The notes: generated from the letters alone by a model not told the origin. Positions 7,859-22,371 are shown, counted from the stretch's first letter. The stretch: 23,922 nucleotides of DNA from a virus (IMGVR_UViG_3300033153_009691:1-23922), one strand, 5' to 3'. Numbers and translations: made by a program.

Positions 7859-8560
7859 ATGTCTGATGAAAATCAAGAGGAAGTGGAACCTCAAACAAAT
7901 TCTACGGAAGAGGAGGAAACTCCCAAAGAGCCAGAGGCTGCTCCAAAGCCCCAAGGGGAGCCCAAAGAAGCTCCAAACGAGCCATCCGAAAAGGAAAAAC
8001 GTCTTTATGCTCGTTTAAAAAAAGAAGAAGAGGCAAGAAAAAAGCTGGAACAAAAACTCCAGGAAGCCAAAAAGCAAGCTGACCCAACTAATGTTGACAA
8101 AATCTTAGAAGTACAAACCGCTACTAAGGGTTTAGTATCAGATGAGATTGCGGAATTGAAGTTAAGAGCAGAAGCTACTGGCAAGTCTCTATTAGAGGCT
8201 AGAGAAGACGAGAACTTCAAAATTTGGCAGAAAGCCTACAAACAAAAAGTCGAGGAAGAAAAAGCGCCTTCTCCTTCGACTACACAAGGTACCGATGATA
8301 GTGAACCAGAACCAGTTAGCATTCATTCTTTTGGAAAGAATCAACAAGGTTTTTCTCCCGGAGCTAAGGAATTCTTTAAAAACTTAACTCCAGAAGAGAC
8401 CGAACAATGGTTAGATGGACTCACTTTTAATGGTGTTCCAATTGAAAAAATTCCAGGTATGACTCCCAAAGGTATTGCGGCCTTTAAAAAAGAAGTGCCA
8501 GCCGTACCCAAGGAATCCTTAAAGGATATTGTGCCAGGTGAAACACCTAAATTCGAGTAG
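7859..8560 (+). CDS. Probable capsid scaffolding protein
   Basis: A 233-residue acidic protein. Residues 1-45 are Glu/Pro-rich and disordered. About 45-75 form a strong coiled coil (KRLYARLKKEEEARKKLEQK). The C-terminal part contains FSPGAKEFFKNLTPEETEQW and another basic-acidic segment, compatible with a coat-interacting domain. It sits directly upstream of the major capsid gene, the normal scaffold position. Scaffolds guide shell assembly and leave before DNA fills the head. The start context is AAATAAATAAT directly before ATG. Confidence 0.7.
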   Translation: MSDENQEEVEPQTNSTEEEETPKEPEAAPKPQGEPKEAPNEPSEKEKRLYARLKKEEEARKKLEQKLQEAKKQADPTNVDKILEVQTATKGLVSDEIAELKLRAEATGKSLLEAREDENFKIWQKAYKQKVEEEKAPSPSTTQGTDDSEPEPVSIHSFGKNQQGFSPGAKEFFKNLTPEETEQWLDGLTFNGVPIEKIPGMTPKGIAAFKKEVPAVPKESLKDIVPGETPKFE

Positions 8561-8589: not shown

Positions 8590-10160
8590 ATGGCTAGTTC
8601 AAATGTATCAAATGACGTTAGCGCTATAACGCCTAACCTTATCTTGGGTGTATAAAATTCTTTCTGATTGACTTGAACCCCTAATCATTGACCATTTTTA
8701 GGGCAACAAGGGCGAAGCTAATTAGTACCTCTTGATACCGAGTTTGTGGTGTGATAGACTAAAAGAAAAAACTATGTCTATTATGTCAAAACTCACAGCT
8801 GCGTATATGGCTGGATATATTGATGGCGAAGGCTATTTAGGGATAATGAAAAGCAACAGACATCCAACTACTGTTGCGCCAACCTATATGCCAGTAATAA
8901 AGGTTACAAGCACCGATGAATCAATTATAATTTGGTTCAAAGAAAGCTTTGGAGGACACATGGATAAAAGAGTATTCGTGGGTAATTCAAAAGATGCCTA
9001 TACTTGGACCCTTACTGGTCAGAAACTAAAAAGGTTTATAGAAAAAGTTTATCCCTATTTAAAGTTAAAAAAGCCACAAGCAGACCTTCTTAAAAAGAGA
9101 TTGAGAATGTACCGCTTGGGTTATAGATACACCCCAGAGGAGGGTAGGATTATGGAAGAACAATATATTCAGATACGCAAGCTAAATAAAAGAGGTAAAA
9201 ACTAATTTTGCACGTTGAGAGACTAAGTGAAAGAACTCCGTAAGGAGATGCGATAGTCCGAACTTATGGGAAACCATAAGCTAACAACAGGAGATTTGGT
9301 CACAGATTATTCAGAAACCACTGTATAAAAGATTAGTATCAATGGAGATTGCCAATACCCGTTTTGTTGATGAAGTGAAAGAAGGTGGTGATACAATTCA
9401 TGTTCAGTATCATGGCGATATGTCTGCAAAGGTATATACTCCAGGTACTGCTATGACTGCGACTGCTCAAGATTGGACAACTGATACTATCAATGTATCA
9501 GCGCATAGGTATACTATGTTTCATGTTGACCCAGTTGAGGGCACACAGGCTAATGTAAATGTTGTTGCGCCGCTAATGAGAGAATCAATGTATCGTATTA
9601 GAGATTTCATTGACCAACAAGTATTTGGCAAAGTACACCTTGGAACAGATACAGATGCCAAAGATGTGGCTGGTGGAACAAGAAATCGTTCTGTGTCAGC
9701 TACATCTGCTAATATCATTCAAATTTTCGGTAATGCTGCAAAGATTTTAAATGCAGCTAATGTTGAGAATGAGGGTGATTGGGCAGCTGTGGTAACTCCA
9801 AAAATTTTGGCAGCAATTCAGCATAAAGCAACTGGTGTTGGTTATAACTTCGCTGATAGCGCGTTAAGAAACGGCTTTGTTGGAAACTTTATGGGTTTCC
9901 AAGTATATTGGTCAAACAATATACAATCAGCAAGTATTCATATCACATCAGCAGAAACCGCTAACGTTTGGAATATTTTTATGGGTAAGAAAAAGACGAT
10001 TGAATTAGTAATGCAAAGAGCGCCAACCGTACAAATTAATAAAGTGTCCGATATGCTCGGTTCACACTATATTGTTTCTACGACCATTGGCACCCAAGTA
10101 TTAACTAAAAATCGTTCACGTTTCTTAAACGTTGAAGTACACAACTCTTACGCTAAATAA
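8590..10160 (+). CDS. Major capsid protein, split by a group I intron (join 8590..8649, 9291..10160)
   Basis: Exon 1 encodes MASSNVSNDVSAITPNLILG and then meets TAA two codons later. Exon 2, from 9291, continues in the same frame with EIWSQIIQKPLYKRLVSMEI and runs to TAA at 10158, giving about 309 residues. The N-terminal PEIWS-like segment, the VKEGGDTIHVQY strand, the extended-arm region, the long helix ESMYRIRDFIDQQVFG and the Ala-rich C-terminal half fit an HK97-fold capsid protein. It follows the scaffold directly. Read without splicing, only a 290-residue fragment beginning near ATG 9342 would be called. An alternative in-frame junction, 8640 with 9291, would drop three residues. Confidence 0.85.
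8650..9290 (+). mobile_element. Group I intron inside the capsid gene
   Basis: The insert is 641 bases and separates two capsid exons that fuse in frame. Its 3' part has group I core signatures: GTTGAGAGACTA (near 9214-9225, R-like) and GAGATGCGATAGTCC (near 9245-9259, S-like). Their GACTA and TAGTC can form P7, with the AACTCCGTAAGGAG hairpin between them as P8 and AACTTATGGGAAACCATAAG as P9. Exon 1 ends in T and the intron ends in G, as group I splicing requires. The CCCTA/TAGGG pair near 8680-8701 could be P2. I could not find a convincing P1, so the 5' boundary is uncertain by about 10 bases. Confidence 0.78.
8774..9205 (+). CDS. LAGLIDADG homing endonuclease encoded in the intron
   Basis: A 143-residue protein starting MSIMSKLTAAYMAGYIDGEG. 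The segment AAYMAGYIDGEGYLGI is a single LAGLIDADG motif with the catalytic acidic residue in the DGEG turn. One motif implies a homodimer. The rest shows the expected strand pattern (MPVIKVTSTDESIIIWF, AYTWTLTGQKLKRFIEKVYP) and a basic C-terminus. A longer TTG start at 8732 would extend into conserved intron core sequence, so ATG 8774 is preferred. The enzyme would cut intronless capsid alleles and spread the intron by repair. Confidence 0.9.
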   Translation: MSIMSKLTAAYMAGYIDGEGYLGIMKSNRHPTTVAPTYMPVIKVTSTDESIIIWFKESFGGHMDKRVFVGNSKDAYTWTLTGQKLKRFIEKVYPYLKLKKPQADLLKKRLRMYRLGYRYTPEEGRIMEEQYIQIRKLNKRGKN

Positions 10161-10212: not shown

Positions 10213-10434
10213 ATGACTATGAATACAATAATAAAAAAGGTTTATCACAAATGGATGAAAAGAAAAATGCTTCATCATTATCGTAAGCAATTTTCTGAAT
10301 TAGAAATAGTTGAAGCAATTGTTACCGAAGATATAATTGCTGGCAACCATAATCGAAGAGAAGAATTAAATCAGACACAGCAAAATATAAAGGCGACAGA
10401 AAAGTTTTTAAGCGCATTAATAAAATTAAAATGA
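10213..10434 (+). CDS. Small helical hypothetical protein after the capsid gene
   Basis: A 73-residue basic, helical protein (MTMNTIIKKVYHKWMKRKML at the start). An alternative start is ATG 10219. It lies between the hairpin structure and the glycan block, and its TGA stop overlaps the glycosyltransferase start (ATGA), so it is coupled to that block. No family recognised; it may be a small head protein or an accessory protein of the glycan block. Confidence 0.55.
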   Translation: MTMNTIIKKVYHKWMKRKMLHHYRKQFSELEIVEAIVTEDIIAGNHNRREELNQTQQNIKATEKFLSALIKLK

Positions 10435-11543
10435 AAATTCTTTACATGCTAAATAGTCCCTATGATTTTAAGGGTGGTTGTTATTTTTATAGGAATTTTA
10501 TTCCGGGAAGACAATTAAAGAAAAAAGGTCACGTTGTTAGAGAGGCTGTATTGGGCAGTTCAATTACTGATGAATTATTAAATTATCCAGATGTGGTTAT
10601 TTTTAGCAGAACTTATGCTGTTGACCCGTTGGCTGTAATGAGAAAATTTAAGAAGGCAAACAAAAGAGTTATTTATGAGGTGGATGATTGTTTGTGGGAA
10701 GTTAATCCAGATAATCCATCAGCGGCAGTGGCAACAGAACAAAGGCACCAATATGAAACTTTAATGAAAGAGGTTGATGCCATTACCACCACAACAGAAA
10801 TACTTAAAAAGAAATTAAGTAAATTAAATAAAAACATTTTTGTTTGTCCTAATGGAATTGATTTAGATTATTTCAAGGAAAGACCCCACGAAAATAAGCA
10901 ACTCGTTATTGGTTATGCTGGAGCCGCTTCGCATTGGGCAGATTTACAATTAACCACTCAAGTATTAGCCGACCTTCAAAAGAAACATAAATTTCAATTT
11001 GTTATTTTGGGAATGACGGGAGCGCCAATAGATGATGAGATGTATGGTTATGACCAGATAATCAATAGGGGATTGCAACCAGAAAAGAATGCGTATATGA
11101 AAGCCGCTCTTAAATGGTATGATATTGTTAAGAAAATGGATTTTATGCATATACCATTTTTTTCACCAGAACTTTATGGAATGGCGTTACAAAGATGTGA
11201 TATGGATATTGGTATAGCTCCATTAAAGGATAATGATTTTAACCACAGTAAATCTTGTGTTAAATTTTATGAATACGCCACATTGGGAACAGTAACGATT
11301 GCATCAAAGGTATTGCCATATAAAAACGAAGTGAATTATTTAGCAAAGAATACTTATAAAAGTTGGTATAAAAAATTGGAAAAATTGATTGTTGATAAAC
11401 CATTTAGAGAGAAATTATTAAAAGAACAAAGAAGGTTTGTTAGAGAAAATCGTCTTATGGGTGAAACCGTTAAAGCGTGGGAAAAAGCCATAGATATTGG
11501 TTCTAAATCAACGGATAAATATATTACCGAAGGGAATGTTTAA
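10431..11543 (+). CDS. GT-B glycosyltransferase, family 4-like
   Basis: A 370-residue protein with the two-domain GT-B layout. The N-terminal acceptor half begins KILYMLNSPYDFKGGCYFYR and includes VDAITTTTEILKKKL. The hinge and donor half carry FVCPNGIDLDYF (about residues 136-147), a Rossmann start LVIGYAGAASHWADL (about 158-172) and the nucleotide-sugar region KFYEYATLGTVTIASKVLPYKNE, the place of the EX7E-like motif in GT4 enzymes (the spacing is not perfect). It should transfer a sugar from a nucleotide donor in the cytosol. It is the first enzyme of the glycan block, overlapping the small gene before it by four bases. The substrate cannot be read from sequence. Confidence 0.82.
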   Translation: MKILYMLNSPYDFKGGCYFYRNFIPGRQLKKKGHVVREAVLGSSITDELLNYPDVVIFSRTYAVDPLAVMRKFKKANKRVIYEVDDCLWEVNPDNPSAAVATEQRHQYETLMKEVDAITTTTEILKKKLSKLNKNIFVCPNGIDLDYFKERPHENKQLVIGYAGAASHWADLQLTTQVLADLQKKHKFQFVILGMTGAPIDDEMYGYDQIINRGLQPEKNAYMKAALKWYDIVKKMDFMHIPFFSPELYGMALQRCDMDIGIAPLKDNDFNHSKSCVKFYEYATLGTVTIASKVLPYKNEVNYLAKNTYKSWYKKLEKLIVDKPFREKLLKEQRRFVRENRLMGETVKAWEKAIDIGSKSTDKYITEGNV

Positions 11544-11545
11544 AT

Positions 11546-12136
11546 ATGTTGCCGAGGGTATATAAAATCAGAATAACAAAGGATAATATAAACCAATTCT
11601 ATGCTTTAGAGTGGCGTAAGGGACAGAAAGTGTTTTGGAAAGATGTGAAAGTATTAGTTAAGAAAATGGTTAAATATGCTAAAGGAAAGAAAAGTAAATT
11701 AACAAAAGTATATCCAGAACGATATGATTTAACCGTATTAACTTATAGCCAAAACAAAAAACCTTGGTGTATCAATGACGGTTCACACAGAATAGAAGCT
11801 ATGAAGATTATTTTAAAAAGAGGACTATTGGATGGATTTGATTTTTATCTTATTCCATCTAATGTTTTAGGAGCTAGAACCAAAGAAGAGGCGTATAAAC
11901 TTAATGAAATAGTTAATAAGGAATTAGATAAATATGGGTTGCCGCATTGGGTTAAAAAGTTTGATTTTGAGAACAGGAATGGAAAACTAATAGCTTGGAA
12001 AAATATCAATCTGATTGATAGCGGTGGACAAGACACTAGGCGACAATATGGTATTGATTGGTTTTTAAATGATGGAATTATCCCAAGGAAGGATTTTGAT
12101 AAACATAATTATAAGAATAAATATAGGAATGAATAA
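11546..12136 (+). CDS. ParB/sulfiredoxin-motif protein of unknown function
   Basis: A 196-residue protein with INDGSHRIEAM at residues about 76-86, the GxHR signature of the ParB/sulfiredoxin-like fold, which binds nucleotides. The remainder (NKELDKYGLPHWVKKFDFEN and the C-terminal GIDWFLNDGIIPRKDF) I do not recognise. In this block it may be an ATP- or CTP-dependent modifying enzyme, or an unrelated DNA-acting phage protein. The start ATG is two bases after the previous stop with a TTAAAT context. Its end overlaps the radical SAM gene by eight bases. Confidence 0.55.
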   Translation: MLPRVYKIRITKDNINQFYALEWRKGQKVFWKDVKVLVKKMVKYAKGKKSKLTKVYPERYDLTVLTYSQNKKPWCINDGSHRIEAMKIILKRGLLDGFDFYLIPSNVLGARTKEEAYKLNEIVNKELDKYGLPHWVKKFDFENRNGKLIAWKNINLIDSGGQDTRRQYGIDWFLNDGIIPRKDFDKHNYKNKYRNE

Positions 12137-13628
12137 GAATGTGCTTCTTATTTCACCGACTTTAATAACTGAAACCCCTATGACATTAGCGATGTTGGCT
12201 CCAATTTTTCAGGAGAAAGGGTTTAAGGTTAAGGCGGCAGTGAATACATTTAAGAAGCCATTAACAATTGAAGATTTCGTAACAAAAGCAGAGGGATGTG
12301 ATATGATTGGAATTAGTATGCTCACCTTTGAGATATTGTTTGTTCATAGATTGATTAAAGCATTAAAGCAAGCTGGTAAATTTGTAATTGTAGGTGGTCC
12401 ACATCCGACAGATTGTCCAGAAGAAATGATTAAAGCTGGCGCTGATGTGGTTGTTGTGGGAGAGGGAGAAGATGTTTTGCGAGAGATATTAGGGGAGTAT
12501 CCCGATATTAAAAAAGGAATAAGAGATAGAAAGCCGCCTGTGGATTTAATAAAGCAACCGATGCCTAATTTAGATATTTTTGACAAAGAAACATTTATGA
12601 CACCAGAGGGATTTATGAAGGGTATTCACAGGATTTATACTAGCAGGGGATGCCCGGGAAAATGCACTTTTTGTGATTGGCAAGTATTTAAACAGAATAT
12701 TAGATTTTACTCCATACCAAAGATTGTTGATGAAATTAAAAGACGAATTGATAATTACGGTATTACGAGTTTTAGTATTGCGGATGACTGTTTTACAATC
12801 AGCAAAAGTAGGGTAATGAAGTTTTGTGAATTAGTTTCAAAAATTACCCCAAAGGTAACTTGGAGAGCTAACGCTAGAGCTAATCTTGTATGGAAAGATA
12901 TGTTGCAGGCAATGAAGGGAAGCGGATGCCATTCTATAGCTTTCGGACTAGAAAGCGGAGACCCAGAAACTCTAAAAAGAATTAACAAAATGGTAACCCT
13001 AGAAGAGAATATCAGAGCTCCTTGGATGGCTCACGAAGCAGAATTAGAAGTATATGGTTGTTTAATGACAGGATTTCCGTGGGAAACAAAAAAGCATTTA
13101 GAAAATCAATTAAAATTTATTTACAATGTTTGGGATGCGGTATCTTTATTTCAAGTATCTGGCAGTTTAATGCCATTTCCCGGAACAGCTATTTATAGGG
13201 AGTTTGCTAAACAATATGGTTTTGAACAATATTGGATGAAGCCAGAATATCAAAAGTTCGGCATTCAAGTTTATCAAAACGCCTTAAATCCATTAGCAGT
13301 AAGCACATTTTATGAAAGATATTTATTTGATGATACTTATATCCAAGAGGAGTTATTTTTCAATTATTCTCCAGAATATAAAGCAAAGGTTAGAGAAATG
13401 GTTTATGAAATAGGGCGGCACAATCTTCCCTTTATGCTTAAAAAGAAACCGTGGAAAGTAAAACCATATTTAAAATTAGCCAAGCTATCAATGTGGGGAT
13501 ATGATTATTTACCGAATGTTGAAAAAAAAGTAGGTGGATGGTTATATAAAAATTTTCACAAACAGGGTCGTAGCAATATAGAGAGATTAAGAGATAAACG
13601 ACGTGGAATATCAAAAGTTAAAACTTAA
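12129..13628 (+). CDS. B12-binding-domain radical SAM enzyme (class B type)
   Basis: With ATG 12129 this encodes 499 residues. A longer frame begins at 12069, but MNKNVLLISPTLITETPMTL is the expected start of the N-terminal domain. Residues about 1-120 form a cobalamin-binding Rossmann-like domain (FVIVGGPHPTDCPEEMIKAG). Residues C175, C179 and C182 in RGCPGKCTFCDW form the CxxxCxxC site for the 4Fe-4S cluster that cleaves SAM. The layout matches enzymes such as BchE and HpnP and various B12 radical SAM methylases. Its substrate here may be a sugar or a phosphonate, but nothing in the sequence decides this. It lies in one block with the sulfotransferase and transferases. Confidence 0.88.
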   Translation: MNKNVLLISPTLITETPMTLAMLAPIFQEKGFKVKAAVNTFKKPLTIEDFVTKAEGCDMIGISMLTFEILFVHRLIKALKQAGKFVIVGGPHPTDCPEEMIKAGADVVVVGEGEDVLREILGEYPDIKKGIRDRKPPVDLIKQPMPNLDIFDKETFMTPEGFMKGIHRIYTSRGCPGKCTFCDWQVFKQNIRFYSIPKIVDEIKRRIDNYGITSFSIADDCFTISKSRVMKFCELVSKITPKVTWRANARANLVWKDMLQAMKGSGCHSIAFGLESGDPETLKRINKMVTLEENIRAPWMAHEAELEVYGCLMTGFPWETKKHLENQLKFIYNVWDAVSLFQVSGSLMPFPGTAIYREFAKQYGFEQYWMKPEYQKFGIQVYQNALNPLAVSTFYERYLFDDTYIQEELFFNYSPEYKAKVREMVYEIGRHNLPFMLKKKPWKVKPYLKLAKLSMWGYDYLPNVEKKVGGWLYKNFHKQGRSNIERLRDKRRGISKVKT

Positions 13629-14358
13629 TTTCATAGTAGCTGGGGCTGTTAAGGGTGGCACAACAGCGCTTCATACATATTTATTAGAACATCCTAATAT
13701 TAGTATGTCGAATCCCAAAGAAACATCGTTTTTTGATAAGCGATTTAAGAGAGGATGGGATTGGTATTGGAATTTTTTTCAAGTAGATAAACATACAAAA
13801 TTATTAGGCGAATCTGCTCCCGGTTATATGACGAATAGGATAAGCCACAAAAGATTAAAAAAACATAATCCCGATTTAAAATTAATATTTATCTTAAGAG
13901 ACCCTTGTGATAGAGCATATTCACTGTATTTGATGCACCAAGACCCACCACATCAAATTTATAGACAAAGAAATGGTCAACCAATGCAATTGCCGCCATT
14001 TGAAGAACATATAAAAAATGATAATAGATATATTTATGAGGGATTATATGCAAAACATATAAAAACCTTGATGAAATATTTTCCTAAAGAGCAAATGTAT
14101 TTTATGAAAAATGAGGATTTATTATATAAAACCCAAGAAACAATGAATAAATTATATAAATGGTTGGGTGTGAGAAAATATAAACTTTCACAAACAAGAA
14201 GATTAATAATTCCAATGGGTGGATTTATTAAGGAGGTAGAAAGATTTCCGTTTTTTTTAAAAGAAAGAAATATAATAATTGATAATTTTATAGAAGATTT
14301 AAATGAACTTGAAAAAATAACAGAATGGGATTTAACTGCGTGGAAAAGATATGAGTAA
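13603..14358 (+). CDS. PAPS-dependent sulfotransferase
   Basis: A 251-residue protein with both cofactor motifs of the Sulfotransfer_1 / heparan-sulfate type family. The 5'-phosphosulfate loop is GAVKGGTTAL (residues 14-23), and the 3'-phosphate site is IFILRDPCDRAYS, with R99 and S107 as the expected contacts. The conserved NPKETSFFD follows the P-loop as usual. It would transfer sulfate from PAPS to a hydroxyl of a glycan. The start is GTG 13603, inside the end of the radical SAM gene (26-base overlap). PAPS must come from the host, since no ATP sulfurylase or APS kinase is in the window. Confidence 0.88.
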   Translation: MEYQKLKLNFIVAGAVKGGTTALHTYLLEHPNISMSNPKETSFFDKRFKRGWDWYWNFFQVDKHTKLLGESAPGYMTNRISHKRLKKHNPDLKLIFILRDPCDRAYSLYLMHQDPPHQIYRQRNGQPMQLPPFEEHIKNDNRYIYEGLYAKHIKTLMKYFPKEQMYFMKNEDLLYKTQETMNKLYKWLGVRKYKLSQTRRLIIPMGGFIKEVERFPFFLKERNIIIDNFIEDLNELEKITEWDLTAWKRYE

Positions 14359-15247
14359 ATATTATTTAACAGATTGGAATAGAGTATTAGCAGATGTCAG
14401 AGAAGTTTTAAAAGATAATATAGTGCAATCTCCCAGTGAGGCAGATAAGATTATAGTTTGGCAGGATGTTATGAGTTTTAGTTTGGGTATTGCTAAAATA
14501 GCCAAGATGCAGAAAAAACCCTTAATACTTATGCAACATGGCAGGTGGGGAACGGGACAATACTTTTATCCATTTTATCAAAAATGTCTTGCAGATCATA
14601 TTTGTGTTTGGGGACAAGAGGTTAAAAATAGGATGATAGAGGTGGGAATTCCAGCTAAAAGAATACATATTACGAGTTCTACAATATTCAAACATTTAAT
14701 ACCGAAGAAAAAACATAAAGGTATAAATATAGTTTTTACGCCAGAACATTGGGATGCTGATGTGCCAGAAAATCACATTGTTTATAAAGAGTTAATGAAA
14801 TATAAAAAAACCCATAATGTTAATATTATAGTAAAAACAGTTAATGAATATGACAAAAAGAATTATGAAAATGTTATTTGGTCGGATAGAAGTAAACCCG
14901 GTCATTTAAAAATATGCGCAGAAGTATTATCAACAGCAGATGTTGTGGTTGGAATAATGGAAGGAACATTTGAATTGTTGGCTCAAGTTATGGATATACC
15001 AGTTATTATTGCTGATATATGGCAACCTAAATCATTTAGGGGAAATGAGGGATATAAAAAATATGAACGTATGCAATCTGATGCTGCTAAATATGTGTCT
15101 TTAAAAGGCTTGCAAGCTGAAATTAGCCAGCAGATAGGGAATCCCGAAGAATTAAAAAAACAACGCCAGAAGGTCGCCCTAAATGAAGCTGGCTTGCATA
15201 TAAAAGACCCATTAAAAGAAATACTTAAAGTAATTAAATATGCCTAA
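14351..15247 (+). CDS. GT-B-like transferase resembling CDP-glycerol or polysialyl transferases
   Basis: A 298-residue protein. It has LILMQHGRWGTGQY (H63, G64), where the His-Gly pair resembles the catalytic region of CDP-glycerol glycerophosphotransferases and related surface-polymer GT-B enzymes. Near residue 200, DVVVGIMEGTFELLAQVMDI gives the donor-side acidic helix typical of the same fold. The protein is shorter than classical TagF and may be a single GT-B unit. A CMP- or CDP-linked donor would fit, given two cytidylyltransferases in the block, but this is inference. It overlaps its neighbours by eight bases on each side. Confidence 0.55.
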   Translation: MSKYYLTDWNRVLADVREVLKDNIVQSPSEADKIIVWQDVMSFSLGIAKIAKMQKKPLILMQHGRWGTGQYFYPFYQKCLADHICVWGQEVKNRMIEVGIPAKRIHITSSTIFKHLIPKKKHKGINIVFTPEHWDADVPENHIVYKELMKYKKTHNVNIIVKTVNEYDKKNYENVIWSDRSKPGHLKICAEVLSTADVVVGIMEGTFELLAQVMDIPVIIADIWQPKSFRGNEGYKKYERMQSDAAKYVSLKGLQAEISQQIGNPEELKKQRQKVALNEAGLHIKDPLKEILKVIKYA

Positions 15248-16553
15248 AATAAACTTACAGCTTGTTAAAGATTTGTGGAATACCAACAGAGCGTTAATCA
15301 GTCCCGATTATGATAATGCTTTGCAATATCTTAGTAAATTAGTTGATTTAAATATTATAGAAATACCCAGTGGAACTAAATGTTGGACGTGGACAGTGCC
15401 ACAACAATGGGATATTAAAGATGCGTGGATTAAATATAATGGCAAAAAGGTGGTAGATTTTCAGAAGGAACCAATGAGCATAATGACTGGTTCTATTGCA
15501 ATTCATAAAAAAGTTCAATTAAAAGAATTACAAAATCATATTCATACAATAGAAGATAATCCCGATATTATACCATATACCTATACTTATTATGAGAAAA
15601 ATTGGGGATTTAATGTGCCATTTAAAAAATTAAAGAAGTTCGATGGTAAAGAATATGAGGTATTTATTGATAGCACCCATAAAAATGGAACATTAAAAAT
15701 AGGTGAACACACAATTAAGGGAAAGAATAATAAAGAAATATTGCTTATAGTTCATTTAGACCATCCATATCAAGCAAATGATGGTTTGTCGCAAGTAGCG
15801 TTAGCAGTAGATACCGCCCATAGAATTAAAAAAGATTATAAATTTGACCACACAATAAAGATATTGTTTGTTCCCGAAACCATTGGTTCAATTGCCTATT
15901 GTTGGAAGAGAGACAAAGAAAAAACCCTAGATAAAATAGATTTTGTTATAACAGCTGATATTGTTGGTAATGATGGAGATATAATTCTTCAGAGAGATTT
16001 TGATAGAAATAGAAAATTAAATAGCGCGGCTTGGTTGGCTTTAAAAGAATGCAATATTAAAGCAGGGAAAAAAGCTATGCCGCAAATGACAGAATGGCGA
16101 GCTATTATAGGGGCAGATGAATATGTTTTTGCTGACCCCAAAATAGATATACCCGTTATCTTTTTTACTAAATATCAACCATCAACTCCAATGAACGCAG
16201 AGGAGGGTTATCCCGAATATCATACTCATAAAGATACTCCAGATATAGTTAAGGGTGAGAATATAAGGGGCGTACAAGATGTTATCTTAAAAACAATAGA
16301 ATTAATGGAGGCAGATTGGATACCCCAAAGAAAGTTTAAGGGACCATTAATGCGTAGTAAGTATAATGTTCAGATGCCCATTAAAACATTTAATAGACAG
16401 TTGGATTATTTAATTTATAGTATTACTGGAAAATATAGTATTATAGAATTAGCAGTAATGAATCATTTAGATTTTAATACCGTGAATGATTTATTATTAA
16501 AATTAGAAAAAGATGGTCAAATCAGTCGGATTAATAATTGCAAAGGGAGATAG
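15240..16553 (+). CDS. DUF4910 zinc hydrolase, M28 aminopeptidase-like, with C-terminal winged helix
   Basis: A 437-residue protein typical of DUF4910 proteins from surface-polysaccharide loci. The N-terminal part includes IEIPSGTKCWTWTVPQQWDI and the regular beta domain IIPYTYTYYEKNWGF. The M28-like core has VHLDHPYQANDG (H175, D181), FVPETIGS (E213), ITADIVGN (D240) and a late EYHTHKD His, matching a two-zinc aminopeptidase site. The last 70 residues look like a winged helix (SIIELAVMNHLDFNTVNDLL). It may deacylate or cleave an amide on a glycan precursor. It overlaps the NeuA-like gene by 41 bases. Confidence 0.78.
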   Translation: MPKINLQLVKDLWNTNRALISPDYDNALQYLSKLVDLNIIEIPSGTKCWTWTVPQQWDIKDAWIKYNGKKVVDFQKEPMSIMTGSIAIHKKVQLKELQNHIHTIEDNPDIIPYTYTYYEKNWGFNVPFKKLKKFDGKEYEVFIDSTHKNGTLKIGEHTIKGKNNKEILLIVHLDHPYQANDGLSQVALAVDTAHRIKKDYKFDHTIKILFVPETIGSIAYCWKRDKEKTLDKIDFVITADIVGNDGDIILQRDFDRNRKLNSAAWLALKECNIKAGKKAMPQMTEWRAIIGADEYVFADPKIDIPVIFFTKYQPSTPMNAEEGYPEYHTHKDTPDIVKGENIRGVQDVILKTIELMEADWIPQRKFKGPLMRSKYNVQMPIKTFNRQLDYLIYSITGKYSIIELAVMNHLDFNTVNDLLLKLEKDGQISRINNCKGR

Positions 16554-17073
16554 TAAAAGATTACAAGGAAAAAATTGGATGGACTTTAATGGAAAACCAA
16601 TGTTTCTTTGGAACTTACTTAAAATGATTTTGATTTTTGATAAGGTTTATGTAAGTTCTGATTATGATTTTATACTTGATACGACTAGAAAATATGGCGG
16701 ATTACCAATTAAGAGACCAAGAAGGTTATGTGGCGACATTCCTAATATATCAGTATATCAGCACGCAGTATTGCAAATGAAGCCAGTACCAGATACAATA
16801 GTGGCGGTACAGGCTAACTCGCCAACTATTGAGAAATGGTTAATTGAACAAGCTAAAAATATTATAGAACAAGAAGATTTTCCAATCAGTGAGTTTAGAA
16901 CAGTTCACCCAGATAAAAGCAGTTATGGAAGTATCTGGGCTTTAAAAGTCAATAAATTGTTTAATTATAAAAATCCTTATAAGCCAAAACCAGATTCTAC
17001 TCTTATAGATGAAAGTATAGATATTCACGATATCAAGGATTATCAAAAAGCATTATGTCAATTAAAATCGTAG
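16513..17073 (+). CDS. NeuA-like CMP-sugar cytidylyltransferase
   Basis: A 186-residue protein. Residues 8-21 read IIAKGDSKRLQGKN, the nucleotide-binding signature of acylneuraminate cytidylyltransferases, followed by the GKPMFLWNL strand-helix. The segment AVQANSPTIEKW matches the second conserved region. It would couple CTP to a nonulosonic-acid-like sugar made by the next gene. It is shorter than standard NeuA (about 220-230 residues), mainly in the dimerisation region. It lies inside a chain of overlaps (41 bases before, 19 after), so dosage with NeuB is probably coupled. No NeuC-like epimerase is seen. Confidence 0.78.
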   Translation: MVKSVGLIIAKGDSKRLQGKNWMDFNGKPMFLWNLLKMILIFDKVYVSSDYDFILDTTRKYGGLPIKRPRRLCGDIPNISVYQHAVLQMKPVPDTIVAVQANSPTIEKWLIEQAKNIIEQEDFPISEFRTVHPDKSSYGSIWALKVNKLFNYKNPYKPKPDSTLIDESIDIHDIKDYQKALCQLKS

Positions 17074-17750
17074 CAGAAATAGGCCACAATGGAAATGGGA
17101 ATATGCGTCTTAATAAACAAATGATAGCAGAAGCTAAAGCTTGTGGAGCCGACATAGCCAAATTTCAACTATACGATACAGATAAGATTAAAAAACCATA
17201 TCAAAGCAGATATTTTGAATTAAAAGCAGCAGAATTAACCGAAGAAGATGTAAAAGAATTATGGAAGGAATGTAAAAAGGTGGGAATAGAGTTTATGGCT
17301 TCTGTCTTTGATACAGAACGGGTTAAATGGTGTGAAGAAATCGGAGTTAAAAGATATAAAATAGCCAGTAGAAGTATTTATGATACGGAACTTATTAAAG
17401 CAATAGAGAAGACAGGCAAGCCAATTATTGCCTCATTGGGAATTTGGAAAGAAAAAGAATTTCCAAAAATTAAAAATGTTGATTTTCTTTATTGTATATC
17501 AGAATATCCAGCATATATTCACGGAGAAGAGTTTCCAATTAAATTTGATAAGTATACAGGATTTAGTGACCATACAATAGGATGTTATTGGGCTCGTGAA
17601 GCTATAAAGCGGGGCGCAACCATTATAGAGAAGCACTTTACATTATCCAAAACATTACCGGGGCATAATCAAAAAGGGTCTGCCGAACCCTATGAATTAA
17701 AGGATTTAGTGGCATATGCTCGTCAAGTAGAACGAGGCATATCATTTTAA
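17055..17750 (+). CDS. NeuB-like PEP-dependent sialic/nonulosonic acid synthase, lacking the SAF domain
   Basis: A 231-residue TIM-barrel protein. VAEIGHNGNGNM (residues 6-17) is the NeuB N-terminal signature, and FSDHTIG and IIEKHFTLSKTLPGHN are the conserved PEP and metal regions. It would condense PEP with an N-acylated hexosamine-type sugar to give a nonulosonic acid. Typical NeuB proteins are about 340 residues with a C-terminal antifreeze-like SAF domain; that domain is absent here, so the substrate site may differ. It follows the NeuA-like gene with a 19-base overlap and is followed after one base by the first LicD gene. Confidence 0.83.
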   Translation: MSIKIVAEIGHNGNGNMRLNKQMIAEAKACGADIAKFQLYDTDKIKKPYQSRYFELKAAELTEEDVKELWKECKKVGIEFMASVFDTERVKWCEEIGVKRYKIASRSIYDTELIKAIEKTGKPIIASLGIWKEKEFPKIKNVDFLYCISEYPAYIHGEEFPIKFDKYTGFSDHTIGCYWAREAIKRGATIIEKHFTLSKTLPGHNQKGSAEPYELKDLVAYARQVERGISF

Positions 17751-17751
17751 G

Positions 17752-18219
17752 ATGTCATTTAAAGAAGGCGCAACAAAAGACTTGAAGGCGATAAAAAAGA
17801 TTTTAGATAAATTAAAAATTCCCTTTTTTCTAAATTATGGAACACTTTTGGGAGCTTATCGAGACAAGGATTTTATCGCAAATGATAGGGATATAGACAT
17901 AGGAATATTAAATTATTTTAATAGAGAAAAGATTTTAGATGCTTTAAAAGCGGAGGGGTTCTATGAAAGAGAAGGACAAGACCATTCAAATATTTGTATA
18001 AAGAGAAATGTTATAATTGATATATATATATTTAAAGAAAGAAACAATAATTATATAGACGGACTTTCTAATTATATTTTTCCCAAAGAATTTGACAAAT
18101 TAAAACCAATAAAATTTTTAGGAATGACATTTTTGAGACCAGATAAAATAGAAAAATATTTACAAAGGTGTTACGGAGATTGGAAAACTCCAGAAAAAAA
18201 ATCAGTAAAAAGAGGATGA
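17752..18219 (+). CDS. LicD/fukutin-family phosphotransferase 1
   Basis: A 155-residue protein with the LicD signature NYGTLLGAYRDKDFIANDRD followed by IDIGI; D45, D47 and D49 are the expected metal-binding acids. The C-terminal YLQRCYGDWKTP is the second conserved LicD block. Family members transfer phosphocholine or similar groups from CDP-linked donors to sugars. Next to PEP mutase genes, a phosphonate group is a reasonable donor, by inference. It is short, close to a minimal LicD fold. Its TGA overlaps the next ATG (ATGA). Confidence 0.82.
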   Translation: MSFKEGATKDLKAIKKILDKLKIPFFLNYGTLLGAYRDKDFIANDRDIDIGILNYFNREKILDALKAEGFYEREGQDHSNICIKRNVIIDIYIFKERNNNYIDGLSNYIFPKEFDKLKPIKFLGMTFLRPDKIEKYLQRCYGDWKTPEKKSVKRG

Positions 18220-18842
18220 ATAGAAAACACGCCCTTGAGGATTTAAAATTAATTCAAGAAATATTTGATAATCATAAAGTGAGATTGATATTGGTTTGGG
18301 GTACCTGTTTGGGATTTGTGAGGGATAAAAATTTTATTAAGTGGGATGATGATATTGATTTAGCAGTTATAGATGATATTCCATTAAAAACCAGAATACA
18401 AATAGGAAAAGACTTGCAAAAAAAAGGATTTTTTAGGCAAGATATAGTTTGGAAAAATGTTGTTAATAAAAGGTGGGAACTTAGTGAAGATGGTTATGGT
18501 GGAGATGAAAAAAGTGGAATTATAGTAATGCAAAGACGCGTTAAAATAACAATATTTTTCTTTGAAGAGGTGGGAGAAATGTTGCAATGTTTTCCAAGGA
18601 GAGATATGTTTCCTCTTATAGAAACACCAAAAAGGTTTTTTCAAAAATTAGATAAAATAAAACATAAAGGTTATGAATACTACATACCAAGTCCTGTTCG
18701 GGAATATCTTTCGCACACTTACAACGAATGGAAAAAACCCAACAGAATTGAACATGGCAAAACTTGGGTCCAAGGGAAAACCGATGAAGAATTGTTTGAA
18801 TATCTTAGAAGCGCATTCGGGATTAAGCGCAAAGATAGTTGA
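18216..18842 (+). CDS. LicD/fukutin-family phosphotransferase 2
   Basis: With ATG 18216 (preceded by AGAGG, one of the few good Shine-Dalgarno sites here) this encodes 208 residues. The motif VWGTCLGFVRDKNFIKWDDD followed by IDLAV places the metal acids at about 44-48. A C-terminal YLSHTYNEWKKP matches the second LicD block. The two LicD copies differ in sequence and length, so they probably act on different positions or donors rather than being a recent duplication. The end overlaps the PepM gene by about 59 bases. Confidence 0.84.
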   Translation: MNRKHALEDLKLIQEIFDNHKVRLILVWGTCLGFVRDKNFIKWDDDIDLAVIDDIPLKTRIQIGKDLQKKGFFRQDIVWKNVVNKRWELSEDGYGGDEKSGIIVMQRRVKITIFFFEEVGEMLQCFPRRDMFPLIETPKRFFQKLDKIKHKGYEYYIPSPVREYLSHTYNEWKKPNRIEHGKTWVQGKTDEELFEYLRSAFGIKRKDS

Positions 18843-19548
18843 AGAAACTGGTTTTGATGGTATTTGGTCTAGTAGTCTATGTGATTCAGCTAGTAGATGT
18901 TTGCCAGATACAGAATTAGTTACTTTAGATGAAAGATTAAATACTATTCAAGAAATGAGAAATGTGACCGATTTACCAATTGTAATGGATTGCGATACGG
19001 GTGGCGCAACAGAACATTTATATTATAGAATTAAAAAATTAGAACGAGCGGGGGTGGATTATTTTGTAATAGAAGATAAGGCATTTCCTAAACGAAACAG
19101 TTTAGATAAAAACGCCAAACATAAATTAGAAGATGTGGATATATTCGCAGATAAGTTAATGGCTGCAAAAGACGCTGTAAGGGACGCAAAAATAATAGCG
19201 AGGGTAGAGTCGTTAATCGCTAAAAAGTCGCTCTATGAGGCATTATTGCGTTCTGAGGCGTATCTGAACGCTGGAGCAGACGGCATCTTAATACATTCCA
19301 AACAAAAAGTGGACGCCACAGAAGTTATGGAGTTTGCGAAGGAATATAAAAAGAAATGGAATAAACCATTAGTAGCGATACCAACAACTTATCAATTACC
19401 CAAAAATCATCCCTTTGATATGATTATTTATGCCAATCATCTTTTAAGGGCTTCTTTAAGAGCAATGAAAGAAACAGCCAAGACTTTAAAAACAGATAAC
19501 ATAGCAACAGTTAAAGAAATATTTAATATAACGGGTTATGGAAAATAA
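18784..19548 (+). CDS. pepM: Phosphoenolpyruvate mutase
   Basis: The enzyme isomerises PEP to phosphonopyruvate, the entry step of nearly all phosphonate biosynthesis. From ATG 18784 it has 254 residues. EAHSGLSAKIVEETGFDGIW (residues 9-28) is the canonical opening, DCDTGG (69-74) supplies active-site acids, and EDKAFPKRNS (97-106) is the EDK-x5-NS signature separating PEP mutases from isocitrate lyase-type relatives. ARVES and AGADGILIHS follow in order. Earlier in-frame ATGs (18754, 18673) lie inside the LicD2 gene; 18784 has AAGGG upstream and is my choice, but 18754 is possible. The adjoining decarboxylase genes, overlapping in series, confirm the role. Confidence 0.93.
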   Translation: MKNCLNILEAHSGLSAKIVEETGFDGIWSSSLCDSASRCLPDTELVTLDERLNTIQEMRNVTDLPIVMDCDTGGATEHLYYRIKKLERAGVDYFVIEDKAFPKRNSLDKNAKHKLEDVDIFADKLMAAKDAVRDAKIIARVESLIAKKSLYEALLRSEAYLNAGADGILIHSKQKVDATEVMEFAKEYKKKWNKPLVAIPTTYQLPKNHPFDMIIYANHLLRASLRAMKETAKTLKTDNIATVKEIFNITGYGK

Positions 19549-19882
19549 ATTTATAGTTGGCGTGCCAGATAGTAAGTTAAAGTTTTGGCTAAAAGATAAA
19601 AGATATTTAATAGCAACAGATGAAGGAGAAGCAGTAGCTATTGGCGCAGGTTACTATTTAGCAACTAATAAAAAGGCGAGTGTATTTATGGGAGCAAACG
19701 GATTTGCTAATGCCCTAGATACTATTACAAGTTTATTAGTGCCATATAAAATACCGATTGATTTAATAATTGCTTTAAGGGAAGATGTAGAATGGCATAG
19801 TATAATGAGTAAGTTAGTAGAACCTATTAACTCTTTAATAAATTATGACAAGAGAACAAGCATTACATACATTGTTGGATGA
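19538..19882 (+). CDS. ppd: Phosphonopyruvate decarboxylase, N-terminal (PYR) subunit
   Basis: A 114-residue protein matching the N-terminal half of phosphonopyruvate decarboxylase. It begins FIVGVPDSKLKFWL, then has IATDEGEAVAIGAGYYLATN, where the Glu of DEG (E29) is the expected cofactor-activating residue, and ANGFANALDTITSLL. It works with the subunit from 19845 to remove CO2 from phosphonopyruvate, driving the unfavourable mutase reaction forward. The two ORFs are in different frames and overlap by 38 bases. It overlaps PepM by 11 bases. Confidence 0.85.
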   Translation: MENKFIVGVPDSKLKFWLKDKRYLIATDEGEAVAIGAGYYLATNKKASVFMGANGFANALDTITSLLVPYKIPIDLIIALREDVEWHSIMSKLVEPINSLINYDKRTSITYIVG

Positions 19883-20327
19883 GATTAAAGACGATTTAGT
19901 AGTTGTATCTAATGGAAAAATTTCAAGAGAAGTATTTGAATTAAGAAAAAAACGAAAAGAACTGAATGATGATTTAGTTGTTCAAGGGGCAATGGGGAGT
20001 GTGATAGGAGTAGGTATTGGAGTAGCTATGCATACTAAAAAGAAGGTATGGGTTTTAACTGGTGATGGCGCATTGCTTATGAAGTTGGGCAGTATCGTTT
20101 CCGCAATGAAACCATGGAATATAGATAACCTAAATATTGTGGTGTTAAATAATGAAAGCCATGCCTCAACTGGGGGACAACCAACCTATTTTTATCTTAT
20201 TAAAGATTATATTAAAAAACATTTTAGAGTAATAGATGTAGAGGGACCACCCAGAAAGAACTTGGGCCGTCCCGATATATCTTGCGCAGAAATAACCAAA
20301 AGATTTATGGAAAAATGTCAATCGTAA
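19845..20327 (+). CDS. ppd: Phosphonopyruvate decarboxylase, C-terminal (TPP-binding) subunit
   Basis: A 160-residue protein matching the C-terminal half of the same enzyme. LTGDGALLMKLGSIVSAM (residues 71-88, GDG at 73-75) with VVLNN (99-103) is the thiamine diphosphate/Mg motif. NDDLVVQGAMGSVIGVGIGV and NESHASTGGQPT are typical of phosphonopyruvate and sulfopyruvate decarboxylases. MTREQALHTLLDEIKDD opens naturally at the domain boundary, so this reads as a genuine two-subunit form rather than a broken gene. Sulfopyruvate decarboxylase is the main alternative, but PepM next door favours phosphonopyruvate. Confidence 0.85.
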   Translation: MTREQALHTLLDEIKDDLVVVSNGKISREVFELRKKRKELNDDLVVQGAMGSVIGVGIGVAMHTKKKVWVLTGDGALLMKLGSIVSAMKPWNIDNLNIVVLNNESHASTGGQPTYFYLIKDYIKKHFRVIDVEGPPRKNLGRPDISCAEITKRFMEKCQS

Positions 20328-20728
20328 ATATATATATTCCTATGACAGCTGACCTATTACACATAGGTCATTTAAAAGCATTGCAACAATGCGCCCAAAG
20401 GGGACGGGTAATCGTTGGTCTTCTTTCAGATGAATGTATAAAGAAATACAAAGGAAAACCACCAATTATTCCATTTGAAGAAAGAAGAGCATTATTAGAA
20501 TGTTTGGCGCCAGTAGATGAAGTTAGAAGGCAAAATACATTAAAACCAGATTTAACTGGAATAAATTATTTGGCGTCTGGAGATGGTTTTGAGCCAGAAG
20601 AAGAACAAGCCGCTAAAGAAGCTAACTGTATATTAGCTAATATAAGTTATTATCAAGGTCAATCAACCACTTTAATAAAACAAAAAGTATGTCAACAGTA
20701 CTCATTACAGGAGGTTGCGGGTTCGTAG
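20315..20728 (+). CDS. HIGH-motif cytidylyltransferase, TagD-like
   Basis: From ATG 20315 this encodes 137 residues. A longer frame starting at 20282 lies within the decarboxylase gene. HIGH at residues 16-19 and GQSTT at 115-119 are the two signature motifs of the glycerol-3-phosphate/phosphocholine cytidylyltransferase family; IIPFEERRALLECLAPVDEV lies between them. The enzyme activates a phospho- or phosphono-alcohol or amine with CTP. Lying directly after PepM and the decarboxylase, and near two LicD genes, a CMP-phosphonate product is the best inference. An ADP-heptose- or nicotinamide-type substrate is less likely. Confidence 0.85.
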   Translation: MSIVNIYIPMTADLLHIGHLKALQQCAQRGRVIVGLLSDECIKKYKGKPPIIPFEERRALLECLAPVDEVRRQNTLKPDLTGINYLASGDGFEPEEEQAAKEANCILANISYYQGQSTTLIKQKVCQQYSLQEVAGS

Positions 20729-21672
20729 GAGCTCATTTTGTAGAAGCAATATTAAAAAAAACAAATTGGAGTGTGGTTGTTTTAGATAAATTAAATTATG
20801 CAGCTAATGGTTTTGATAGATTGAGAGATATAAATGTTTTTGATGATAAACGAGTTAAAGTATTAACTGCTGATTTTATTCAACCATTGTCAAGGGGTAT
20901 TAAAAAAGAAATAGGACAAATAAACTATATTTGGCATTTAGGAGCGGAAACACACGTTGATAGGTCGATAGAAAACCCAAAAGATTTCGTTTTATCAAAT
21001 GTCCTTGGGACAATGCACATACTCAACTTTGCCAAAGAGGTAAAGCCAGATATATTCTTCTATTTTTCAACAGATGAAGTATTTGGTCCAGCGCCAGAAG
21101 GATATTTTCACCACGAAAAAGATTATCATTATCCATCTAATCCCTATGCGGCTACTAAATCGGGGGGGGAAATGTTAGTTAAAGCTTTCGGCAACACCTA
21201 TAAAATACCTTGGATTATTACTAGGACAATGAATATTTTTGGTGAACGTCAACATCCAGAGAAATTTATACCCCTATGTATTAGAAAAATTTTAGCAGGA
21301 GAAGAAATAATTATTCACGGTAATAAGGATAAAACTAAATCTGGCAGTAGAATGTGGATACACGCTAGGAATGTGGCAGATGCCTATTTGTTCTTGACAG
21401 CTTTTGGAGAAAGGGGGGAAGAATATCATATTGTTGGTGAAAAAGAAGTTAGCAACTTAGAAATGGCTCAATTTATTGCCAAGGCCCTAGGAAAAGAATT
21501 AAAATATAAAATAGTAGATTTTCATTCTAGCAGACCGGGACACGATTTAAGATATGCTCTAGATGGTTCCAAGATAGATAAAATGGGTTGGAAACTACCC
21601 AAAACATTTGAACAATCTCTTGAGAAAACAATTAAATGGACTTTAGAAAATAAAAAATGGTTAAAAATATAA
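20689..21672 (+). CDS. NAD-dependent sugar-nucleotide 4,6-dehydratase, RmlB-like
   Basis: A 327-residue extended short-chain dehydrogenase. G8-x-x-G11-x-x-G14 in LITGGCGFVGAHF binds NAD. Y153-x-x-x-K157 (NPYAATK) is the catalytic pair, and STDEVFG (127-133) carries the Asp-Glu pair that distinguishes 4,6-dehydratases from plain epimerases. SRMWIHARNVADAYLFLTAF is the usual substrate-side motif. It would make a 4-keto-6-deoxy sugar nucleotide for the glycan, and no RmlA, C or D partner is in the window. It overlaps the cytidylyltransferase by 40 bases and ends four bases before the adaptor gene, where the structural genes resume. Confidence 0.87.
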   Translation: MSTVLITGGCGFVGAHFVEAILKKTNWSVVVLDKLNYAANGFDRLRDINVFDDKRVKVLTADFIQPLSRGIKKEIGQINYIWHLGAETHVDRSIENPKDFVLSNVLGTMHILNFAKEVKPDIFFYFSTDEVFGPAPEGYFHHEKDYHYPSNPYAATKSGGEMLVKAFGNTYKIPWIITRTMNIFGERQHPEKFIPLCIRKILAGEEIIIHGNKDKTKSGSRMWIHARNVADAYLFLTAFGERGEEYHIVGEKEVSNLEMAQFIAKALGKELKYKIVDFHSSRPGHDLRYALDGSKIDKMGWKLPKTFEQSLEKTIKWTLENKKWLKI

Positions 21673-21675
21673 TAT

Positions 21676-22371
21676 ATGCAATATTCAGACCTTCGCAGTG
21701 ACGTTTATTTCTTATGTAATACAACATCAGCGTCATATGCTACCGCAGATGTCTTGCGGAATATAAATAGGGCATACAATGAGGTAACATATATAATATG
21801 GGATTCACAAGATGCCTGGCGTTTTGATGACCGCAATAACACAGATTTACCATATTTTAGAAAGGATTTAACTCACGGTATCCAAGATTATACAATACCA
21901 TCTACCTTGCAAAAAATAGAACGTATTGAGGTATTGGATAATAATAATAATTGGTGCAGAATTAATCCGTTTGACGACCCAGATGTGGAATCGGCTCTAC
22001 CAGAATATCTTGAAGTGTCTAATTTACCGATAAAATATACATTACAAGGTAATCTTATATCTTTGTATCCACCACCATCATCAGCTCACGTGACCACTAC
22101 TAGTGGTCTTGCTTTTTATGGTTCAAGAGATGTTACGGAGTTTGTGGGTACCGTAGCAACAGCAGTACCTGGTTTTGCTAAACAATTTCATAGAATTCTT
22201 TCTTATTCTGCGGCAATAGATTTTGAACAAGACCCGCAAAAAGTACAACAATTTCTTAGAGATAAAGAACAACTTATTAAAGGATTAAAAAGATTTTATG
22301 GTAAACGACACATAGAAAGACCAAGCAGAATACGTTCAAGGGATAAAAAATTTAGACGTAAATATCTATAA
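21676..22371 (+). CDS. Head-tail adaptor / connector protein
   Basis: A 231-residue protein. The N-terminal half is helical with YATADVLRNINRAYNEVTYI, a pattern seen in gp4/gp6-type adaptors that bind the portal ring. A middle beta region (YTIPSTLQKIERIEVLDNNN) includes the membrane-free strands of these proteins, and the last 40 residues are helical and very basic (GLKRFYGKRHIERPSRIRSR). It is the first structural gene after the glycan block, so the normal head-to-tail order is interrupted only by that block. The start context is TATAATAT before ATG; the stop overlaps the next start (TAATG). Confidence 0.65.
   Translation: MQYSDLRSDVYFLCNTTSASYATADVLRNINRAYNEVTYIIWDSQDAWRFDDRNNTDLPYFRKDLTHGIQDYTIPSTLQKIERIEVLDNNNNWCRINPFDDPDVESALPEYLEVSNLPIKYTLQGNLISLYPPPSSAHVTTTSGLAFYGSRDVTEFVGTVATAVPGFAKQFHRILSYSAAIDFEQDPQKVQQFLRDKEQLIKGLKRFYGKRHIERPSRIRSRDKKFRRKYL

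Follow-up and report, generated by a model that had tools for sequence, protein, structure and literature searches.

A predicted phosphonate biosynthesis module within the glycan cassette of a tailed-phage head operon

The window analyzed here is the entire IMG/VR virus record IMGVR_UViG_3300033153_009691 (23,922 bases); all features described lie on the plus strand, and the contigs used for comparison are denoted by L and a number. The structural genes follow the Caudoviricetes order of terminase, portal, major capsid and adaptor. The terminase large subunit (TerL, 4166..5491; phrog_2 4.5e-43, PF03237) is followed by the protein in the portal position (5850..7598), the lineage marker with 46-70% identity among lineage contigs, which is assigned by its position and by distant similarity to the gene that follows TerL in phage MW202577. 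Next comes a probable scaffold protein (7859..8560), recognized by its position, acidic N-terminus and conservation across the lineage, and without a match to any family. The major capsid protein (MCP) gene is split into exon 1 (8590..8634; MASSNVSNDVSAITP), which matches the uninterrupted capsid protein of L100, and exon 2 (9291..10160; phrog_267 4.7e-28, and the exon joint). The ~656 nt between the exons (8635-9290) are probably an intron and contain a LAGLIDADG homing endonuclease ORF (8732..9205; PF00961 5.3e-4); an insertion also occurs at this site in L135. A group I intron match (RF00028, 9112-9280) is sub-threshold at 16.1 bits (E 0.18), and an Rfam search of the whole window at the gathering threshold gave no match. 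The SU10-type head-tail adaptor (21676..22371; PF24175 (SU10_adaptor) 2.6e-7) completes the series.

Between the major capsid gene and the adaptor lies a glycan cassette of ~11 kb, and the phosphonate genes are one module within it. A small conserved ORF (10213..10434), present in L100, L005, L104 and others, leads from the capsid gene to the first gene of the cassette, a lineage-conserved glycosyltransferase (10431..11543; phrog_7162 4.2e-42). It is followed by a conserved protein without an assigned role (11546..12136; homologs in L125, L126, L128, L135 and L146), a B12-binding radical SAM enzyme (12129..13628; PF04055, PF02310; best solved relative AprD4; also in L005, L100, L140, L185 and L186), a sulfotransferase (13603..14358; PF00685 1.1e-16) and a second glycosyltransferase of the GT-B fold (14351..15247), whose AlphaFold model (pLDDT 92) matches GT-B glycosyltransferases and epimerases in Foldseek at ~2e-9. 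Further downstream are a DUF4910/DUF2172/M28-like protein (15240..16553; PF16254 8.9e-49), a NeuA-like CMP-sugar synthetase (16513..17073; PF02348 4.7e-11), a NeuB-like nonulosonate synthase (17055..17750; PF03102 3.8e-48) and two LicD-family transferases, LicD1 (17752..18219; PF04991 7.3e-10) and LicD2 (18168..18842; PF04991 9.9e-9), the latter with a likelier start at the ATG at 18216. The phosphonate genes come next, and an extended SDR of the nucleotide-sugar dehydratase-epimerase type (20689..21672; PF16363 3.9e-48) closes the cassette.

The sequence-only reading had placed a PEP mutase (PepM), both halves of a phosphonopyruvate decarboxylase (Ppd) and a HIGH-motif cytidylyltransferase between the capsid and head-tail adaptor genes of a tailed phage. 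Profile matches and the motif bear out both the four genes and their location, and support a genuine tailed phage carrying a genuine PepM/Ppd/cytidylyltransferase set. PepM (18784..19548) passes PF13714 (E=2.1e-47), with PEP mutase 1m1b as its best solved relative (E=6.8e-48). The diagnostic EDKxxxxxNS motif, noted earlier, is indeed present as EDKAFPKRNS, and 11 of the 11 active-site residues examined are kept (W44, S46, D58, D85, D87, E114, K120, N122, S123, R159 and H190 in 1pym numbering). The score against TIGR02320 (279.6 bits), still the top NCBIfam model, lies under the curated cut-off of 319.55, which weakens the formal equivalog call but leaves the motif evidence unaffected.

PpdA (19538..19882), the N-terminal half of Ppd, and PpdB (19845..20327; PF02775), the C-terminal TPP-binding half, match the phosphonopyruvate decarboxylase model TIGR03297 at 8.4e-18 and 1.2e-31, respectively. 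Sulfopyruvate decarboxylase was rejected as an identity because it scores more poorly for both halves (4e-10 and 2.6e-21). Ppd is likewise split into a PYR-like and a TPP-binding half in L005, L007, L127, L129 and L132; the two halves are separated by a further gene in L007, so that the split is stable. The Ppd at 19538-20327 is shortened as well as split, the middle of the usual protein being missing. The cytidylyltransferase (20342..20728; PF01467 4.6e-9) has the fold with an HxGH (HIGH) motif, and its nearest solved chains are ethanolamine-phosphate cytidylyltransferase (3elb) and 5x3d. The latter was deposited as phosphoenolpyruvate phosphomutase and is presumably the cytidylyltransferase domain of Fom1. 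Fom1 acts on hydroxyethylphosphonate (PMC6697681). The phage protein is thus a candidate CTP:2-hydroxyethylphosphonate (HEP) enzyme, with a sequence that does not separate HEP from glycerol-3-phosphate or phosphoethanolamine as substrate. The gapless succession of the four genes holds insofar as they overlap by 11-46 nt, for which the cytidylyltransferase would start at 20282, within PpdB, whereas the alternative start at 20342 would leave a 14-nt gap.

The PepM-PpdA-PpdB-cytidylyltransferase cassette recurs in seven further IMG/VR contigs of the lineage (L005, L127, L129, L132, L184, L185 and L186). L005 (contig 3300024433_001125) carries TerL, portal, scaffold, MCP, the small ORF and the glycosyltransferase, and further on LicD-LicD-PepM-PpdA-PpdB-FeADH-cytidylyltransferase-adaptor, at 27-63% protein identity, where Fe-ADH is an iron-containing alcohol dehydrogenase resembling phosphonoacetaldehyde reductase. 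L129 has the gene order of the window from the M28-like gene to the adaptor, plus Fe-ADH, one LicD rather than two and two extra small ORFs. In L100, the capsid protein is 85% and the glycosyltransferase 84% identical, with the joins around both, and the contig stops before the phosphonate region. A scan for the glycosyltransferase returned ~28 lineage contigs, and in those mapped it follows the MCP gene. L128, L134 and L139 extend from the MCP gene through the adaptor without PepM, the cassette of L139 consisting almost entirely of the first glycosyltransferase. In addition, the PepM carriers do not form one group in the portal tree, which suggests a module that can be exchanged or has been lost several times. 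The phosphonate block noted earlier is real but belongs to a larger and variable cassette.

Phylogenetic analysis grouped the PepMs of the window, L005, L127, L129 and L132 into one viral clade (100/94), apart from the sampled cellular PepMs. Together with L006 and L007, these five fall on one side of a branch (99/95) opposite 41 other rows, 38 of which are genome-set or fecal-record sequences. The cellular sample was drawn from a single pattern scan and comprises its top 80 matches, and a closer cellular relative could exist. The tree was repeated without the PepMs of Vibrio phage Va2 and the EDN-type viral PepMs, at which the first version had very long branches; in the earlier tree, the neighbors of the lineage PepMs were those of Nitrospinaceae, Falkowbacteria and Lokiarchaeota.

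PepM occurs more widely among viral contigs. A scan with a single sequence returned nothing, and scans with alignments returned homologs first in 15 and then in 30 more IMG/VR contigs, 45 in all apart from the window, including several near-duplicates and contigs not all verified as viral. Terminase genes are found on L005, L007, L009, L013, L015, L016, L182, L185, L186, L187, L190 and L201, the last with a T4-type capsid gene as well. The viral-classed contigs L192-L200 and L202-L207, up to 189 kb, contain a set of cytidylyltransferase, PepM, Ppd and Fe-ADH. Among those searched with PF03237 and phrog_2, several large PepM contigs within L192-L207 gave no terminase match and are therefore not claimed as phages. 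PepMs with an EDN/QDD motif form a group (L011-L018), and an AEP-transaminase type is represented by L011 and L019. In L015 (8111-11592) and L016 (8516-12435), the genes for PepM (EDN/QDD), PpdA, PpdB, Fe-ADH and cytidylyltransferase precede terminase and portal, and they are accompanied by genes for two B12 radical SAM proteins and a CDP-alcohol phosphatidyltransferase; a phage phosphonolipid is possible in this lineage. The fecal 'Bacteriophage sp.' records MT837901 and MT836947, with cytidylyltransferase-PepM fusions nested among Firmicutes and no phage genes seen, were set aside.

The phosphonate biosynthesis set described by the sequence-only reading is genuine as to PepM, Ppd and cytidylyltransferase, but does not include the reductase encoded by most relatives. 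A search of the whole window contig with eleven relatives and a profile found no Fe-ADH, which leaves the HEP pathway incomplete on the window, a fragment beyond which the remaining phage genome lies. In most relatives, Fe-ADH is placed between PpdB and the cytidylyltransferase (PepM-PpdA-PpdB-FeADH-cytidylyltransferase in L005, L127, L129, L132, L184 and L185). The L005 protein has the phosphonate-associated TIGR03405 as best model (1.1e-44), and those of L005, L006 and L007 each pass Fe-ADH in Pfam. Relatives with Fe-ADH thereby complete the route from PEP via phosphonopyruvate, phosphonoacetaldehyde and HEP to CMP-HEP, and, by analogy with them, HEP is the expected intermediate and product in the window phage. 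The extended SDR is a poor candidate for the reductase because L106, with no PepM in its visible part, has a 55% identical SDR in its cassette. Very short Fe-ADH proteins (161-168 aa) are encoded near the phage phosphonate genes of L182 (9519-10004) and L186 (3513-4019), elsewhere in the cassette, which indicates that the Fe-ADH gene moves. No Fe-ADH is found within the available stretch of L187.

The transfer step is suggested by LicD2. Besides its LicD profile match, its model (pLDDT 78) has an FKRP-like fold, the best solved matches being FKRP structures (2.6e-7), some of them bound to CMP or to CDP-ribitol together with a sugar acceptor. FKRP is a CDP-ribitol phosphotransferase whose acceptor is a sugar. 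LicD-like phosphotransferases have already been linked to bacterial phosphonate clusters (PMC6697681). The conversion of CMP-HEP and a glycan into HEP-glycan is therefore the natural reading. A crude hydropathy scan of the cassette proteins of the window and L005 gave no credible membrane helix; one PpdB stretch that passes the scan aligns with a conserved segment of the TPP domain. Furthermore, no flippase, polymerase or polyprenyl-phosphate transferase was seen in the cassette. Together with the location in the head operon, this favors cytosolic protein glycosylation, with a virion protein as the likeliest acceptor.

In the pathway proposed here, PepM and the split Ppd, whose identities follow from sequence, would convert PEP into phosphonopyruvate and this into phosphonoacetaldehyde. 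A reductase from elsewhere in the phage genome or from the host would yield HEP, in keeping with the sister phages, most of which encode the enzyme, and the HIGH cytidylyltransferase would form the CMP conjugate. A LicD/FKRP-like transferase would then put HEP on a sugar made by the cassette glycosyltransferases and CMP-nonulosonate enzymes, the acceptor most likely being a glycan on a virion protein, formed in the cytosol while particles assemble. That the cassette is a virus-encoded phosphonoglycan cassette leading from PEP to HEP-glycan, likely on a virion protein, is in our judgment an evenly balanced proposition. The more specific proposal, that this tailed-phage lineage makes its own C-P compound at head assembly and coats capsid or neck proteins with a HEP-bearing glycan, is more tentative. 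More generally, some viruses probably build phosphonate-decorated glycans, and perhaps do so on their own particles.

Decoration of either virions or the infected cell surface had been suggested before; glycan tailoring stands as the likely use, and the dearth of membrane proteins makes the virion the likelier site. The main rival invokes identical chemistry, with the phosphonoglycan placed on the surface of the infected cell, for instance against superinfection or grazing. Cellular PepM clusters mainly tailor cell surfaces (PMC6697681, PMC8931226), and in the second phage lineage (L015 and L016) the pathway genes stand next to one for a membrane CDP-alcohol phosphatidyltransferase. However, the cassette genes of the window sit within a late head operon and encode neither membrane helices nor a visible flippase or polymerase, and we regard this alternative as rather unlikely, although it is the strongest one. 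Decay of the phosphonate module in the window phage is less probable still. Loss of Fe-ADH would make phosphonoacetaldehyde a dead end while the remaining glycan cassette still works, and the whole contig is indeed devoid of the gene that most relatives have. Yet PepM, PpdA, PpdB and the cytidylyltransferase are all open, the PepM active site is intact, the Fe-ADH gene is mobile, and the contig is only a fragment.

A further alternative is that the enzymes feed a diffusible phosphonate instead of a glycan, by a fosfomycin-like early pathway with the B12 radical SAM protein as methyltransferase. The first fosfomycin steps employ PepM, Ppd, Fe-ADH, a HEP-cytidylyltransferase and a B12 radical SAM enzyme, and the phage genes recall this set. 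However, the nearest families of the radical SAM protein are ApyD, HpnJ and AprD4 rather than any known phosphonate methyltransferase, leaving a Fom3-type role unsupported; it is missing from L127, L129, L132 and L184, and LicD and glycosyltransferase genes adjoin the module, so that this alternative is very improbable. Finally, an assembly chimera joining phage sequence to a bacterial phosphonate cluster, signaled by the chimeric joins at the block edges that had been a concern, found no evidence in its favor and is to all intents excluded, as both joins recur in independently assembled contigs at roughly 40-85% protein identity and the closest PepMs sampled are viral.

The preferred phosphonoglycan reading is best compared with the bacterial phosphonyl tailoring (Pnt) clusters, which place, for example, AEP on surface glycans and share PepM, Ppd, cytidylyltransferase, LicD-like transferases and glycosyltransferases with the phage (PMC6697681). 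In contrast to these, the phage cassette lies in a tailed-phage head operon, its Ppd is split and minimal, its cytidylyltransferase is separate from PepM, and it appears to be of the hydroxyethyl rather than the aminoethyl type, judged by the Fe-ADH of its relatives and the absence of an AEP transaminase among the cassette genes. The early fosfomycin pathway (Fom1, Fom2 and FomC) similarly combines PepM with a HEP-cytidylyltransferase domain, Ppd and Fe-ADH, but the phage cassette has no recognized later fosfomycin genes and is adjoined by LicD and glycan genes, and the window lacks Fe-ADH. Mycobacteriophages have been proposed to modify their capsid with their own glycosyltransferases (PMC11256854). 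Whereas such phage virion glycosylation likewise relies on phage glycosyltransferases, the window phage has a whole biosynthetic cassette. We know of no phosphonate genes reported for virion glycosylation systems such as those of mycobacteriophages.

A phage-borne PepM has precedents in the annotated PEP mutase of Vibrio phage Va2 (MW073017) and in the dozens of IMG/VR contigs with PepM homologs. Va2 (L004, 1089-7194) encodes a PEP mutase with an EDKx6NS motif and a full-length Ppd-like TPP enzyme, adjoining ribonucleotide reductase genes; its PepM is 27% identical to that of the window, and the viewed stretch has no cytidylyltransferase, LicD or head genes. No description of such a phage cassette was found by literature searches on phage PepM or phage phosphonate biosynthesis, which covered subscription journals thinly. 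The head-operon phosphonate cassette is thus real, recurrent and, as far as found, undescribed, while every component family is already known.

The making of C-P bonds is regarded as a cellular ability. Its presence in the structural operons of phages would make viruses a direct source of environmental phosphonates and would give phosphonoglycans a part in the biology of virions. Should the HEP-glycan on capsid or neck proteins prove true, viruses would be dedicated phosphonate producers whose particles bear a hydrolysis-resistant decoration. Furthermore, the compact five-gene module (PepM, PpdA, PpdB, Fe-ADH and cytidylyltransferase) with its adjoining LicD makes the poorly known phosphonate transfer step testable on small soluble proteins.

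The host is possibly a member of the Patescibacteria, as weakly suggested by distant portal relatives found by profile, with the genome bins taken at face value, in 4 of 380 Patescibacteria genomes, one of these matches being weak, and in 1 of 279 Nanoarchaeota, compared to 0 of 297 Bacteroidota and 0 of 300 Bacillota. L114 (11589-19162), a contig assigned to a Patescibacteria bin, follows the same plan without PepM: its MCP and adaptor genes enclose glycosyltransferases and a DegT-like aminotransferase.
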